Source: Balneolaceae bacterium
Lineage (GTDB): Bacteria > Bacteroidota > Rhodothermia > Balneolales > Balneolaceae
Reading direction: 5' to 3'
Length of the DNA: 39,104 nucleotides
Assembly: GCA_007694095.1 (NCBI GenBank)
Contig: RECI01000214.1
Coordinates: 1-39,104 of the forward strand
In this document: positions 2,600-9,441 of the stretch, piece by piece
Layout of the letters: each line of letters opens with the position of its first letter
Numbering within the stretch: position 1 is the stretch's first letter
The notes under the pieces: model-generated
The model's input: the letters and a program-made list of their open reading frames with translations, nothing else
What the model was told of the DNA's origin: nothing
Database searches by the model: none
Position numbers and translations under genes: made by a program

Positions 2600-3316
2600 A
2601 TGTTGAGAACCCTTTCCGGTTTTGCAATTCTGATTCTTTTGGCTTCAGGCTGCTCAATTTTTCGTCCGGCGGTTCCTGTAGAAAAACCGGTTTTGTTCTA
2701 TCCGGATCCTGATTCATCTATGGTTCAAATGCTTGATTCTTACCGTCCGGCTTTAGACCGGTATATGGGCCAAAGGGTTGCAACCGTTCGCGATACAATC
2801 CGGTTTGACCAGCCCGAAGGGGCCCTTGGTAATCTTGTGGCAGACGCTCTCCGTTTTCGTGCCGCACATGAAACCCACAGTTTTGTACATGTGGGAATTA
2901 TCGGGGAGAGTTCGTTTAATCTATTCTTCGAACCGGGCGATTTAACTCTTGGCCATATTTACGAATTTATGCCATTTGAGAATCATCTTGTGGTACTCAC
3001 GCTTAACGGTATCAAATTGCAGGAACTGATGGACCAGGTTGCAGGGCTTGGCGGTGCACCTGTAAGTGGAGTAAGGTTTAATATTAACGAAGAAAATACA
3101 GCACGAGGAATTCTTGTAAATTCAGAAGTGATAGATCCCGGCCGAAATTATCTGGTTGCAACAACAAGCTGGGCCGCGAATGGCGGCGATGTATTTCCTG
3201 CTCTATGGGATGCAACTGGCCGGACAGACCTGGATGTTTCTGTCAGACAGATTTTTTTAGATTATTTCAGCAGGCAGGCTGAACTGGTTGATTTTCGTGA
3301 CGGAAGGATTCGCTAA
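2600..3316 (+). CDS. Lipoprotein with 5'-nucleotidase C-terminal domain
   Basis: A 238-residue lipoprotein: hydrophobic leader with lipobox LASGC (Cys18). Residues from about 70 onward form the 5'-nucleotidase C-terminal domain (PF02872), with GALGNLVADALR, then LTLGHIYEFMPFENHL and TLNGIKLQELM, followed by the closing NGGDVFP segment. In UshA-type enzymes this domain supplies the nucleotide-binding residues and lies after the metallophosphatase domain in one chain. Here it is a separate gene, and the metallophosphatase half follows as another gene 94 bases downstream. The two probably assemble into one nucleotide-scavenging hydrolase in the periplasm or on the outer membrane; that pairing is inferred from order and domain complementarity. 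Confidence 0.88.
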   Translation: MLRTLSGFAILILLASGCSIFRPAVPVEKPVLFYPDPDSSMVQMLDSYRPALDRYMGQRVATVRDTIRFDQPEGALGNLVADALRFRAAHETHSFVHVGIIGESSFNLFFEPGDLTLGHIYEFMPFENHLVVLTLNGIKLQELMDQVAGLGGAPVSGVRFNINEENTARGILVNSEVIDPGRNYLVATTSWAANGGDVFPALWDATGRTDLDVSVRQIFLDYFSRQAELVDFRDGRIR

Positions 3317-3410: not shown

Positions 3411-4340
3411 ATGATAACCCGTAAAAATTTCCTGAAACATGCATCTGTGCTGGCTGCCGGGTCATTATTGCCCCTGAATATAAGCGGCGATTTATTTAAC
3501 CGGTTTAACGGGCAGAAGATTACAATCCTGTACACAAATGATACCCATGCGCGTCTGGATCCTTTTCCTGAGAATGCCCGCAGGTTTGCCGGGCTGGGCG
3601 GAATTGCCCGCAGGGCATCGCTGGTAAAAAAAGTTCGGGCGCAAGAAAAAAATGTACTCCTGCTTGATGGTGGCGATGTATTCCAGGGCACCCCGTGGTT
3701 TGATGTATACGGCGGTAAGGTGGACCTGGAATTGATGACCGAGATGCAGTACGATGCCATGGTAGTGGGCAACCACGAGTTCGACCGGGGGCTTGAGGGT
3801 TTTGCAGAAGCAGCGCAAAAAGCAGGATTTCCAATCCTTGCCTCAAATTACCTCACCCGAAATACCCCGATGCATCCCCATGTACAGCGTCAGATCATAA
3901 AAGAATTTGACGGTTTCCGGATCGGTATCTTCGGTCTTGGAATACAGTTCAATGGAGTAGTAGATCCAAAACTGTATGGCGAGGTAATTTCCCAAGACCC
4001 TGTTTCAGTAGCCCGGCGCGGCGTGGAGAGTCTCCGGAATTTTCATTATTGTGATTATGTAATCTGCCTGAGCCACCTTGGATTTCAGTATCAAAACGGC
4101 CGGATAGATGATATTACCCTTGCCACATCTGTTGAAGGAATCGATCTTATCATCGGCGGACACACGCATACCTTTCTTGACGAACCTGTTATAATTGAAA
4201 ATCCATCAGGTAAAAAAACCACCATTACACATATGGGCCACAGCGGGGTACGGGTTGGCCGAATAGATATTGATATATCCGGGATTGGCCAATACACGGC
4301 AATCCAAAGCCGTTACTACATCATCGACGGCCAATCATAA
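3411..4340 (+). CDS. Metallophosphatase, N-terminal half of a 5'-nucleotidase (UshA/NT5E-like)
   Basis: A 309-residue exported calcineurin-like phosphoesterase. The leader (MITRKNFLKHASVLAAGSLL) looks Tat-like but has TRKNF and not a twin arginine, so the export route is uncertain. All five metal-binding motifs of the family are present in order: TNDTHARL (D, H), DGGDVFQG (D), VVGNHEFDRG (N, H), CLSHLG (H) and GGHTHTFL (H, H). The chain ends after this domain; the nucleotide-recognition C-terminal domain is encoded separately by the gene upstream. Substrate is probably nucleoside 5'-monophosphates or related phosphoesters. Without its partner the specificity would be poor, so joint action is likely. 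Confidence 0.92.
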   Translation: MITRKNFLKHASVLAAGSLLPLNISGDLFNRFNGQKITILYTNDTHARLDPFPENARRFAGLGGIARRASLVKKVRAQEKNVLLLDGGDVFQGTPWFDVYGGKVDLELMTEMQYDAMVVGNHEFDRGLEGFAEAAQKAGFPILASNYLTRNTPMHPHVQRQIIKEFDGFRIGIFGLGIQFNGVVDPKLYGEVISQDPVSVARRGVESLRNFHYCDYVICLSHLGFQYQNGRIDDITLATSVEGIDLIIGGHTHTFLDEPVIIENPSGKKTTITHMGHSGVRVGRIDIDISGIGQYTAIQSRYYIIDGQS

Positions 4341-4499
4341 GCGTAATATTGGCAGTATATTAAATATTAGGGATAATCTTATCCAAATTTCAGTTGTTAT
4401 CCTTTCGTTTCCAATTTTTCTATGATTCAGTTCGAATATAGCTGTTATATTACCCATTCATGAGTAGTCATACATGCATACATTGATTATTCCCCTGCT

Positions 4500-5594
4500 A
4501 TGGTTTTCATTAAAAGACTGATTTGGCTGTTAGTTGCATTTCTTTTTTTCTTGGTGTTTCAGGTTGACTTATTTGGCCAGGATACAACTGTCAGAACTAT
4601 TCATGGTACAGTAACCGATTCTGCTGATAATCAAACCATACAAAATGTACACGTCTATCTTTCGAATACCACAGATGGAACCGTTACAGATGCTGGTGGT
4701 CATTATATCCTGAAAACAGAGTTAACGGGCCATTTTACATTGGTGTTCAGCCATGTGGGATACGATACAAAATCAGTTGAAATCCGGCTGGGAGAAGAAA
4801 CAGAAATAGAGGCTACAACGGAGTTGCATACTGTTGTTTATGACCTGAATGGTGTCGCGATCATTGCTGAGGCTGACGATGAATGGGAGCGGAACCTGGA
4901 TTTGTTTACCAAAGAATTCATAGGTACCAGTTTCATTGCACAGGATGCTGAAATCCTGAATCCCTGGATCATTGAATTTGGAATAAACGGAAATGGTCAA
5001 CTTGAAGCCAATGCATCGGAACCGCTATTAATTGAACATCATGCACTGGGATATCACATCCATGTTGATCTTATCTCCTTCCGGTGGGATCCTGATGAAG
5101 GAACCGGCCACTATACATTTTTCCACAGGTTCACTGAAATGGAATCCGACAGCTGGCGTCAGCGAAGAAGTTGGAGATACCAGCGAAGGCTTGCATTCAG
5201 AGGGTCTTTCGAACATTTTCTGCATAGCCTTTACCATGATCAGTTATCGCAAGACAAATTTATGACTGCTGTACAGGATAGTTTTAAAACAACTGAAATT
5301 GAACTGCTGAACCAATATGAGTTAGATGAATATCTTGCTGACCGGGAAATTAAGTACTCAAGCCATCCGGGGCTTAAAGGTTTTCGGATTAGGGAAAATG
5401 TTGATATAATTTTTTTGAGAAGCTATGCCAGAAGCGTTATCAGAGAGCGGTCAAGGCTGGTTCCGCAGAATCCTTCAAACATTTTTCTGGTTACGGAACA
5501 TGGCAGGTTATTTCATCCTCTATCTTTGCGAATAGATGGCGTTTGGTCGCAACACAGAATAGGTGATTTGCTGCCGGTTGGATTTACATTATGA
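4500..5594 (+). CDS. Secreted protein with carboxypeptidase-regulatory-like domain
   Basis: A 364-residue exported protein. Residues 1-26 form a signal peptide ending near LFGQD. Residues 35-115 are a CarboxypepD_reg-like/peptidase-associated beta-sandwich (IHGTVTDSADNQTIQNVHVYL...TDAGGHYIL...HVGYDTKSV), the same domain that caps TonB-dependent receptors in this phylum. The remaining 250 residues (from EADDEWERNLDLFTKEF) contain no TonB plug or barrel and have many Trp, Arg and His residues; I do not recognise a catalytic motif. Similar proteins with this domain followed by an uncharacterised region occur in Bacteroidota and are probably outer-envelope proteins. It ends convergently, 116 bases from the receptor pseudogene. 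Confidence 0.75.
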   Translation: MVFIKRLIWLLVAFLFFLVFQVDLFGQDTTVRTIHGTVTDSADNQTIQNVHVYLSNTTDGTVTDAGGHYILKTELTGHFTLVFSHVGYDTKSVEIRLGEETEIEATTELHTVVYDLNGVAIIAEADDEWERNLDLFTKEFIGTSFIAQDAEILNPWIIEFGINGNGQLEANASEPLLIEHHALGYHIHVDLISFRWDPDEGTGHYTFFHRFTEMESDSWRQRRSWRYQRRLAFRGSFEHFLHSLYHDQLSQDKFMTAVQDSFKTTEIELLNQYELDEYLADREIKYSSHPGLKGFRIRENVDIIFLRSYARSVIRERSRLVPQNPSNIFLVTEHGRLFHPLSLRIDGVWSQHRIGDLLPVGFTL

Positions 5595-5710
5595 AACTGG
5601 TTAAAATTTTTTTTTATCATATAACAAAACTCTACAATGTGTTTCGTTAACCTATCTGATTTGGGATGGTTGGGTAATAGATTTTCGGAAGGAAAAAACT
5701 TCTGCCCCGG

Positions 5711-7257
5711 TTAGCTTAACCTGAAACTTAGCGACAGGTAAGGCAAAAACGGCAGCTCATCCACCTGCTGCATGGTGTTTACGTCGAAGTAGAAGATGTT
5801 CTGAACGTTGTATGCATTCACGGCGCCGATTTCTGCTTCAAGAGTGAAACCGGGCGCCAGCCGGAAGGGCCTGCTGAGCGACACATCCAGCCGGCGGAAA
5901 CTGGGAAAACGCCCGTCAAACGGTTCTGAATAGAGGCTGACCATACGCCCCCGGTCGGTGAGCGGATGTTGTGTGGAAACATCCAGTAACATATCAATTG
6001 CAAAGAGTTTGGTGTAAGGGTTGCCGCTGCTATATTGCCAGATGGCATTAGCTGTTAACCCGGCAAACTTCATACTGGTGATCAGGTTGAGCTGATGGCG
6101 GCGGTCGTGCGGCGGGTTGTAGCGGAACACATCCCGGTCGATCCAGGCAACAAGGTCATTTGCATCGGCCCGGTACTCTGTTTTCGATAATCCGTAGCCG
6201 AAAAGTAGATAAAACCGACCCCGATTGAATTCCGCCTGCACGTCTGCTCCCCAGGTGGTTCCATCTGCCAGGGCCGTTACAATGGTATTTCCCGGCTCGC
6301 GGGTCCACCTGGCAACGGGAATATTTCGGTGGCGTTTGGCATAGCCTTCTACGCTGATGTCTACCAAATTACCGATCTGCCGACGGTATCCCATGATGCT
6401 GTGCAGCGATTCCGGCAGCGGATCTTCCCTGTCCACAGGTTTGTACACATAAAAAACGGTACCGGCATCACGTTCGTCAGAGATCGCCTCCATCACCTGC
6501 AGGTAGCGGCCCGTCGCCAGGCTCCATTCCTGCCGGTCATCGCCACCGGGCTGCCATGAAATGCGCAGGCGTGGTTCAAATGTGGGAGAGATGGTGCTCA
6601 GCGTTACCTGTGTCACAAATCCCGGTTTCAGGGTTAATCCGTGCGCAGGTTGCCAGTTGAGGGCGGTGTAGCCGCTGAAGGTGGAGGTGAGCTGGTCGAT
6701 TTTGGAATCCCAGTGGGTAAAGCGGACTCCGGCCCCGCTCCGTTCGGCAAACAGTTCGTCTAACTGAGCGTTATACTGAACAAAATCAATCTTGACACCA
6801 TAATCGAGTGGCACTCTCATGATTTCCCATTTATTGTCCATGCGAAGAAAACCCATCTTTATTCCGGAACTGCGTTCCGTGTTGTCAAACCCGCTTTCAG
6901 TGCTGTGGTAAGAGCTGAAGCCAAGCGAAAAATCCACGGCGTGGTCAACTTCCTCACCAAAACCGAGGCAGCGCATGCCAAGTGCGGTGTTACCCCAGGT
7001 CAGCTCCACGTTACGGTCGGGGTTGATGCGTCCGCGAAACCGTCGGTATTGGTTACGCCCGCGCGGAGGGTGTCGGCCCCCGGTTCGCTGATGAACACCG
7101 TGGCGCCAATCACCGGGGTGCCGTCTTCTTCGATGATGATAAGCACACGGAGGGTGGCCTGGCCGGCCTGGGCAAATACATTTGTTTGAGATGCAAATAA
7201 CAATAAAACGACAATGGTTTTTATGAATACCCAATATTTGAGTTGCATCATCTTCAT
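5711..7257 (-). pseudogene. TonB-dependent receptor, plug region deleted and frameshifted
   Basis: Reading the minus strand from 7257, the start MKMMQLKYW leads into a signal peptide (to VFAQAGQ) and the opening of a CarboxypepD_reg domain (GTPVIGATVFISEP...NTDGFAD). At about 7031-7045 the meaningful frame shifts: the first frame soon stops at 7000-7002, and the new frame gives NPDRNVELTWGNTALGMR, which is already beta-barrel, and continues through amphipathic strands to LSLSFRLS at 5711. The end of the regulatory domain and the whole plug, well over 100 residues, are missing. Deletion plus frameshift makes a functional receptor impossible as written. About 480 residues of barrel remain open, so the loss may be recent. 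The upstream lipoprotein gene is damaged too. Confidence 0.82.
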
Positions 7258-7268
7258 ATATGCCGGGC

Positions 7269-7950
7269 TTAAATAATCAATCGAGTTGAATGGTAAATGT
7301 GGTTGACATGCTGTGTTGACATTTGATGGGGTGAAGAATCTGGTTAGCAGGTTTCGCGGAGTAATAATGAGAACCATCTCATCATCCTCAATCCGGTGTT
7401 TAGGCTTTGGGCCTGCAGCAAAACCCGACCACTGGATTCCATCTGCATCAATAATTCCAACTTCCATCAGGATACGTTCGGGGTACTCTACATTTTTGAA
7501 AATAAATTCAATGTTCTGAGTACAGCCCACATGTTGCTGCGGTACCACGGATACTTCGGTAATTCCCGGAATTGTTGCCACACTGGAAACGGAAACAATG
7601 CCATCTCTTTTTACGGTGAGGCGGTAGCTGTTTTTCGGAACGAGCTCTTTTTCCACAAGAAAGTTGTAAGCAATAAATCCGGAGAAATCCACTTTTATGT
7701 TTTGGAGTATTTGAACCGAGCCGGTCCCGAGATCTTCAAAGGTTACAGTTCCATCAAATTCTTCAGGCTGTTCATTTAAAGGAATATGCGTGTTTTTTAC
7801 GCGGACATAATGTTGATCATGATCTGCATCCAGTGAACCATAAATCGAATAAAATCAGTCATTTTCTTCGAATGGATCAAGATTTCTTTCGATACACCCG
7901 GATACAATGAATAATAGTGTCGGCAAGATAAGAACCTTGTAATGAATCAT
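7269..7950 (-). pseudogene. DUF4249-like lipoprotein with in-frame nonsense codon
   Basis: From an ATG at 7950 the minus strand encodes a lipoprotein leader with lipobox IVSGC, then IERNLDPFEEND, then TGA at 7855-7857. The same frame resumes at once with FYSIYGSLDADHDQHYV and continues through SYRLTVKRDGIVSVSS, a pattern typical of DUF4249 proteins, which commonly sit beside TonB-dependent receptors. The frame then runs on into the receptor start with no stop of its own; shifts to the other frames would stop at 7277-7279 or 7269. There are thus at least one nonsense codon and probably a C-terminal frameshift. The family call is moderate; the stop codon is directly visible. Confidence 0.7.
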
Positions 7951-8233
7951 GATGAATTATTAGAAATTGAACTAATAATAAAGAAAATGGGGAGGAATCA
8001 CAGGTAAAACATGACTAACCCGGAATTCTCACAGAAAATATGTGAAGTGTGTTATAACTTTATGATATATAATACCTTAAGATATAATTTTTGAGCCTAT
8101 GAAAAAATGTGATGGTTATTTCCGCATATACAGGGTAATTAGCCACATAAAAACCGATCAGAATTGATGTATTTTCAGAAATAACGGGCTGGGAAAGATC
8201 AGTAAACCAGTCATGTAACTGAACTGAAGAGAG

Positions 8234-8659
8234 TTACCGCTTGGTAGTGATTAAAATTACACCATTCGCACCTCTAACCCCGTAAATGGATGCATCACTT
8301 CCCATCAGTACTCTTACATTATCGATATCGCGGACATTAATCATATTGTTAACCTGTGAATAACTGTTGCCCATCACGTTGCCGTCAACAACATAGAGCG
8401 GATCGGTATTGGTCATGAAGGAAGCTGAGCCCCGCACCTTTATCGATGGGTTGTGGCTTGGCCCTGTTACCTGAACACCGGGAACTCTCTGAAGGAAATC
8501 TGCCAGGGTACGGTATGTATCCCTTGAATCGGAAGATACAGTGGGTGAGCCCTCGGCTGATGATACGCTTTGTTCACGATCTGATGTTTGTCCGGAAGTT
8601 GAACATGCGGTACATATTAAAAAAAGAGAGATAACTAAGGGAATGAATAAGCTTTTCAT
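8234..8659 (-). CDS. Plug-only TonB-domain lipoprotein (copy 1)
   Basis: A 141-residue lipoprotein consisting of a leader with lipobox CTAC, a short Ser-rich linker and one TonB-dependent-receptor plug domain: TLADFLQRVPGVQVTG, IKVRGSASF, DPLYVVDGNVMG, then VRVLMGSDASIYGVRGANG and VILITTKR, where it stops. The last motif is the SusC/RagA-type signature that normally leads into the barrel; no barrel follows. The ATG at 8659 is preferred over one six codons upstream because GGAGG (8664-8668) is spaced four bases before it. A close paralogue lies upstream on the same strand. The function is unknown; such free-standing plugs might engage TonB, a porin or a surface partner. Confidence 0.85.
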   Translation of the reverse strand: MKSLFIPLVISLFLICTACSTSGQTSDREQSVSSAEGSPTVSSDSRDTYRTLADFLQRVPGVQVTGPSHNPSIKVRGSASFMTNTDPLYVVDGNVMGNSYSQVNNMINVRDIDNVRVLMGSDASIYGVRGANGVILITTKR

Positions 8660-8663
8660 GAAA

Positions 8664-8668
8664 CCTCC
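8664..8668 (-). promoter_or_regulatory. Ribosome binding site GGAGG
   Basis: On the minus strand GGAGG lies four bases before the ATG at 8659. It decides the start of plug lipoprotein copy 1, because the alternative ATG at 8677 would place this site inside the coding region. Confidence 0.6.
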
Positions 8669-8796
8669 ATGGAACATGATTGAAAACTCAGTAAAAACAA
8701 ATCAGGGAAATTCTAAGACTTTACCTGAAATCAGATCATTCAAACTGAAAAATATTGTTCAAATGATGAGAGGAGTAAATTGTAGTGTAAATTCGT

Positions 8797-9222
8797 TTAT
8801 CGCTTTGTGGTGATAACTATCACACCATTAGCCCCTCTTACGCCATAAATGGCCGCATCACTTCCTTTTAAAACACGCACATTGGCAATATCCCTCACAT
8901 TCAGCATATTATTTACTGCATTATAATTGGTGCCCACGGAAGTGCCATCAATTACATAAAGTGGCTGTATTTCAGAATTAAATGATGAAACTCCCCTGAT
9001 AAGTACCATTTGATTGTTCTGAGGTCCGGAAACATAAACACCCGGAACGCGTTGCAGGTAATCTGCAAGTGAACGGTAGTAATCACGGTCATCCGTTACA
9101 GTATTTACAGCATGTCCCGTATGCAGTTCAATTTCATGAGGCCGGGTGGTCTGTTCTGAAGTAGTACAGGCTGCCATCAAAAAGAGGAAGGAAAATAGGA
9201 ACAGCAGAGTTTGGTTTTTCAT
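8797..9222 (-). CDS. Plug-only TonB-domain lipoprotein (copy 2)
   Basis: A paralogue of the next gene downstream, with identical length (141 residues) and domain order. The leader has lipobox LMAAC. The plug reads SLADYLQRVPGVYVSG, VLIRGVSSF, QPLYVIDGTSVG, VRVLKGSDAAIYGVRGANG and VIVITTKR, then a stop. The start at 9222 is chosen because GGAG (9228-9231) lies five bases upstream. The two copies share most plug residues but differ in leader and linker, so the duplication is old enough for divergence and both frames have stayed intact. That suggests selection for function. The 137 bases between the coding regions may hold a second promoter. Confidence 0.85.
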   Translation of the reverse strand: MKNQTLLFLFSFLFLMAACTTSEQTTRPHEIELHTGHAVNTVTDDRDYYRSLADYLQRVPGVYVSGPQNNQMVLIRGVSSFNSEIQPLYVIDGTSVGTNYNAVNNMLNVRDIANVRVLKGSDAAIYGVRGANGVIVITTKR

Positions 9223-9227
9223 AGCAA

Positions 9228-9231
9228 CTCC
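9228..9231 (-). promoter_or_regulatory. Ribosome binding site GGAG
   Basis: On the minus strand GGAG lies five bases before the ATG at 9222 and supports that start for plug lipoprotein copy 2 over the ATG at 9240. Confidence 0.5.
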
Positions 9232-9441
9232 GTTAAACATTGTTTGTATTTATAATAATATAGTAAAAAACGGTTGTTGAAAACGTTTTGGTACAGATTT
9301 TAAGAATTTAGATTTTTTTATCAGATTTTTTCAACTTGTTTACAAATTACATGAAATGTAAACCGTTAAAAGGTATTTATGCCCCGAGTGGATAACTGTG
9401 GAAAAACAGTGAAACCGGGAAAGAAATGTACTTCCCCGGGT

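Follow-up and report, generated by a model that had tools for sequence, protein, structure and literature searches.

A probably dead receptor–lipoprotein uptake operon in a variable gene slot of a Balneolaceae genome

The window, i.e., the whole 39,104-nt stretch of Balneolaceae DNA analyzed here (contig RECI01000214.1), contains an intact gene and the damaged remains of a lipoprotein gene and a TonB-dependent receptor gene, set between two conserved flanks. Gene and fragment boundaries were drawn from frame inspection, alignment with relatives, domain matches, homology searches, and synteny, as given for each feature:

3411–4340, plus strand: metallophosphoesterase, left conserved flank (domain match, synteny)
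4500–5594, plus strand: intact gene for a 364-aa protein carrying a CarboxypepD_reg-like domain, part of the same extra block (domain and homology search)
5711–7033, minus strand: receptor fragment 2, the barrel of the C-terminal part, open over 439 codons (frames, homology search)
7031–7038, minus strand: receptor deletion junction, 249–250 residues missing plus a frame change
7034–7257, minus strand: receptor fragment 1, covering the signal peptide and the beginning of a carboxypeptidase-regulatory-like domain (frames, alignment)
7258–7950, minus strand: lipoprotein pseudogene (ORF and frame inspection, alignment with relatives)
7855–7857, minus strand: in-frame TGA, the 32nd codon of the lipoprotein counted from the ATG at 7950
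8234–8677, minus strand: small plug-domain lipoprotein, right conserved flank (second copy at 8797–9240)

The lipoprotein gene begins with the ATG at 7950 and encodes a signal peptide with a lipobox-like IVSGC motif. Downstream of the TGA its frame is open to 7258 and meets no stop before the receptor start at 7257 (or one of the next in-frame ATGs), so that the lipoprotein, having no stop of its own, runs on into the receptor gene. An earlier note on this DNA had described both the in-frame TGA and the lost stop, and both lesions can be read in the sequence. We aligned the gene with 12 relatives (open frames of 278–313 residues; one of them, L049, is cut by a contig end). At the position of the TGA the relatives have Gly (9/12), Ser (2/12), or Ala (1/12). 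The window copy tracks them up to the region of a conserved H-Y-x-P-G-F motif, after which the C-terminal tail, 34–46 residues long in all 11 relatives with a complete end, is gone. Its loss could reflect a recombination junction or a plain deletion.

The family label that the lipoprotein had been given in the earlier note, DUF4249, did not hold. The window copy has no match to PF14054 at E ≤ 0.1 and thus does not attain the gathering score; among six intact relatives, one reached 14.4 bits (E 0.029) against a cut-off of 28.5 and five gave no match at E ≤ 5. The gene does have the layout of that family in being encoded beside a TonB-dependent receptor, and at 14 of 18 other receptor loci found at E ≤ 1e-100 the barrel match has a related lipoprotein no more than 1.4 kb away (counted by hand). 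The lipoprotein is therefore DUF4249-like in layout only. NCBIfam gave nothing useful for either the lipoprotein or the barrel. A structure predicted for an intact relative of the lipoprotein (mean pLDDT 78.5) had only weak beta-sandwich matches, with no TM-score above 0.41 among the 50 matches listed, and gave no clue to function.

The receptor is split between two frames: that of fragment 1 terminates at the stop at 7000–7002, and the barrel is read in a different one, out of frame with the signal peptide and N-terminal domain. To define what is missing, we entered the two fragments separately into an alignment with 11 intact receptors encoded in this genome and in related ones (open frames of 756–799 residues, stop to stop). 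Both fragments fit in order, and the gap between them measures 249 or 250 residues in 11/11 intact relatives, which argues against a chance arrangement. The barrel's nearest intact receptor, an open frame of 799 residues, is 55% identical to it across 436 residues; identities to the 11 aligned receptors are 42–55%. In an intact paralogue from the same genome the missing stretch corresponds to residues 92–340 and holds the entire Pfam plug match (residues 152–246; PF07715, 29.5 bits against a cut-off of 23.9). Lost are the remainder of the regulatory-like domain, the plug, and about 90 residues beyond it. Accordingly, PF07715 has no match in the window fragments. Fragment 1 matches PF13620 below threshold (15.3 versus 32.3 bits); Pfam barrel models do not match the window barrel, and solved structures gave no sequence match. 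By homology to its intact relatives, the gene is thus assigned to the TonB-dependent receptors, with the window copy itself falling short of membership for lack of a plug.

Since the frame change sits at the missing segment, the most economical reading is a single deletion whose length is not a multiple of three, and the plug loss and the frameshift most likely go back to one out-of-frame event of about 750 nt. An in-frame deletion combined with a further small indel would look the same. The earlier note had described a plug deletion and a frameshift in the receptor; both are present and meet at about 7031–7038. Its view that the two genes decay by different mutations stands for the nonsense codon, the tail loss, and the internal deletion, the receptor's two defects being most likely one. 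Three pairs of direct repeats of 14–21 nt occur in 4300–8260, none of them flanking the deletion junction. Searches with the middle part of the intact receptors gave no hit in the rest of the window at E ≤ 1e-3. Of 11 matches to this part in the genome, 10 lie in open frames of 528–970 residues and the 11th is weak (E 0.001, frame of 259 residues); an orphan plug encoded elsewhere, as expected of a shuffled receptor, was considered and no convincing case emerged.

Both genes are thus disrupted in frame relative to their intact homologues. Long open frames on either side of each lesion would also be expected of a locus that still works, with readthrough of the TGA and a receptor produced by frameshifting or in two parts. 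We regard this as very unlikely. Of the 28 ORFs that we treated as genes in the window, 7 end in TGA, and none of the 12 relatives has Trp at the aligned position; recoding of TGA was rejected on these grounds. A search of 7000–7250 for slippery heptamers of the XXXYYYZ type found none, and a frameshifted product would still be without the plug and the roughly 90 residues that follow it. The barrel frame alone shows no signal peptide, so that an exported receptor is not expected from it.

To place the pair in its genomic context, we compared 19 related loci found by a metallophosphoesterase scan (16 titled Balneolaceae, one Rhodohalobacter, two otherwise labelled); their flanks vary in length, that of L108 being short, and some come from genomes that are also in our set of 28 genus genomes. 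The order largely common to them is mnmA, a conserved gene, a 5'-nucleotidase C-terminal-domain gene, the metallophosphoesterase, a porin (in some), plug lipoproteins (in some), ilvE, a peptidase, and recQ. The metallophosphoesterase is followed by a porin in 11/19 loci, by no porin in 7/19, and by a contig end in 1/19; the receptor, the lipoprotein, and the 4500–5594 gene were found in 0/19 at E ≤ 1e-5. Full-length genes similar to the latter, at 36–40% identity, occur elsewhere in this and other genus genomes. The nearest relatives by flanking DNA, G011 and G018, have a Porin_O_P-family porin in the slot (L074:3995–5245). It is whole in G011, where it matches PF07396, and split in G018, with its end beside the plug genes at the start of one contig and the rest at the edge of another. 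The porin is found in 16/28 genus genomes at E ≤ 1e-10 and has no match in the present genome (99.29% complete) at E ≤ 0.01. Given its position in the nearest relatives, the block 4500–7950 stands at the porin's place.

Other features of this neighborhood are worth recording. The plug lipoproteins at 8234–8677 and 8797–9240 (both minus strand) are arranged in tandem, consist of little beyond a TonB plug domain, whose SusC/RagA-type signature falls slightly short of the cut-off, and adjoin ilvE (compare L079, L080, and L081). One to three copies were found in 10/10 loci of a set partly chosen for them. Among the related loci that reach ilvE, 9/15 have them, with no match to this receptor alongside; as related loci keep them without an adjacent receptor match, we rejected the idea that they are partners of the receptor. 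One narrow literature search found nothing on such tandem plug lipoproteins. Directly 5' of the metallophosphoesterase (3411–4340, plus), the 5'-nucleotidase C-terminal-domain gene (2600–3316, plus) is found in 19/19 related loci; we take the two to be the halves of a UshA-type enzyme, here split into two genes that stand in the reverse order. A fragment (8014–8107, plus) of a MITE-like dispersed repeat with ends resembling TAGCCCGGAATTCTCAC lies immediately upstream of the lipoprotein gene. The repeat recurs at six other places in this genome and has matches in three relatives (compare L084–L089); L088 carries both inverted ends within about 120 bp.

Beyond what the earlier note had recognized, the pair thus forms an extra block in the porin slot, and the receptor, not the lipoprotein, is compositionally unusual for the window. 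The barrel has a GC3 of 0.631, which exceeds that of the 28 ORFs treated as genes in the window by 5 SD (mean 0.418, SD 0.042, maximum 0.496), and receptor fragment 1 has 0.61, whereas the lipoprotein is host-like at 0.387. The receptor–lipoprotein difference is 0.24 in the window pair and −0.015 to 0.076 in 10 intact pairs. This suggests that receptor and lipoprotein may not have arrived together. High GC3 alone is no proof of import, since intact receptors of relatives range from 0.388 to 0.571 (the genome's own paralogue has 0.473). In midpoint-rooted trees of 12 receptors and 13 lipoproteins, both window copies group with G011, G018, and the own paralogue, the lipoprotein on a very long branch (1.79). 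In the receptors nearest by sequence, the lipoprotein lies downstream rather than upstream.

With the genome in 324 contigs and several receptor paralogues present, the plug and the tail could be missing through a collapsed or chimeric assembly, perhaps one in which paralogous receptors were confused. We consider such an artefact unlikely. At least three lesions fall in this one pair, whereas nine flanking genes each align with relatives in a single match over 98–100% of their length, so that damage is seen in this pair alone. Moreover, the nearest paralogue within the genome is just 54% identical in protein, the pair's DNA matches the rest of the genome only in short stretches or at 67% identity, and the two receptor fragments are alike in GC3.

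That the decay is recent, as the earlier note had put it, is plausible. We simulated random substitution in the barrel (kappa 2, 1000 runs per point, substitutions alone without indels) and obtained chances of a stop-free frame of 0.443, 0.157, and 0.051 at 2, 5, and 8% neutral substitution, respectively. As all 439 codons are still open, more than about 8% neutral substitution is unlikely. Of the alignment columns that do not vary among ten relatives, the barrel still matches 93.5% on average (94/100 in one set), compared with 90–100% for intact relatives left out one at a time. The corresponding values are 83% for the lipoprotein (11/13 in one set; intact relatives 81–100%) and 78% for the N-terminal receptor fragment (7/9; intact relatives 90–100%), the latter resting on few columns and weaker than that of the barrel. 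Retention of most invariant columns is equally expected of a gene under selection, and these data fit a recent loss of function rather than prove it. No orthologue above 55% identity, close enough for dating, was found in the 28 genus genomes, and at 55% the nearest relative is too distant for a dN/dS estimate; a pattern scan of genome contigs with the barrel confirmed no relative, and sequence search finds relatives at 55% and below.

The earlier note had proposed that the transported substrate became dispensable or harmful, with a phage receptor as its example. TonB-dependent receptors act as phage receptors in other bacteria, and loss of this one could have been selected because it served a phage or a bacteriocin. 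This concerns the cause and would be compatible with a dead operon; we give it little probability, as relaxed selection explains the decay of the pair equally well. A literature search on this idea, in the parts consulted, turned up nothing specific to this pair.

Taken together, the region is very probably a dead two-gene uptake operon that lies in a variable slot and lost its function through a nonsense codon and deletions. In the scenario we favor, the original operon would have carried a gene for an outer-membrane lipoprotein ahead of one for a TonB-dependent receptor. Together with the 4500–5594 gene, this pair occupies the slot between the metallophosphoesterase and plug-domain lipoprotein genes, which is the site of a porin in the two nearest relatives, and the receptor, at least, may come from elsewhere. 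Translation of the lipoprotein would end at the nonsense codon, 31 codons in, the gene also lacks its tail and stop, and the single out-of-frame deletion proposed above would have taken the receptor plug and the part behind it. A plug-less barrel that is still made, and that either stands in for the porin as an open pore or is gated in trans by the neighboring stand-alone plug lipoproteins, is extremely improbable, because it needs an undetected route by which the barrel obtains a signal peptide and the missing part.

The finding is real as sequence and looks like ordinary gene loss in an accessory outer-membrane uptake pair, of low broader importance. It offers a clean small case of outer-membrane slot turnover, in which the relatives' porin is absent and a receptor–lipoprotein pair is present but decaying. 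It also cautions against annotating the long barrel ORF as a receptor, since that ORF has neither plug nor signal peptide.

Among known systems, the decayed pair resembles ordinary pseudogenes of accessory outer-membrane genes, with the same combination of a nonsense codon and deletions in adjacent genes and no notable difference. The signal peptide, domain start, and barrel of the receptor are homologous to those of TonB-dependent receptors with an N-terminal carboxypeptidase-regulatory-like domain (PF13715/PF13620 plus PF07715); the window copy differs from them in having lost the plug and the residues behind it and in being spread over two frames. Pairs of a TonB-dependent transporter and a DUF4249 protein are known from BT2172/BT2173 of Bacteroides thetaiotaomicron, and disrupting either gene reportedly has similar consequences, according to the part of that report consulted (PMC11003636). 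The likeness, as far as that part describes it, is that the receptor adjoins a small partner gene and the two are conserved as neighbors (PMC11003636); the difference is that the lipoproteins studied here stay below the threshold of the DUF4249 model. By analogy with BT2172/BT2173, the window pair would have cooperated in uptake.
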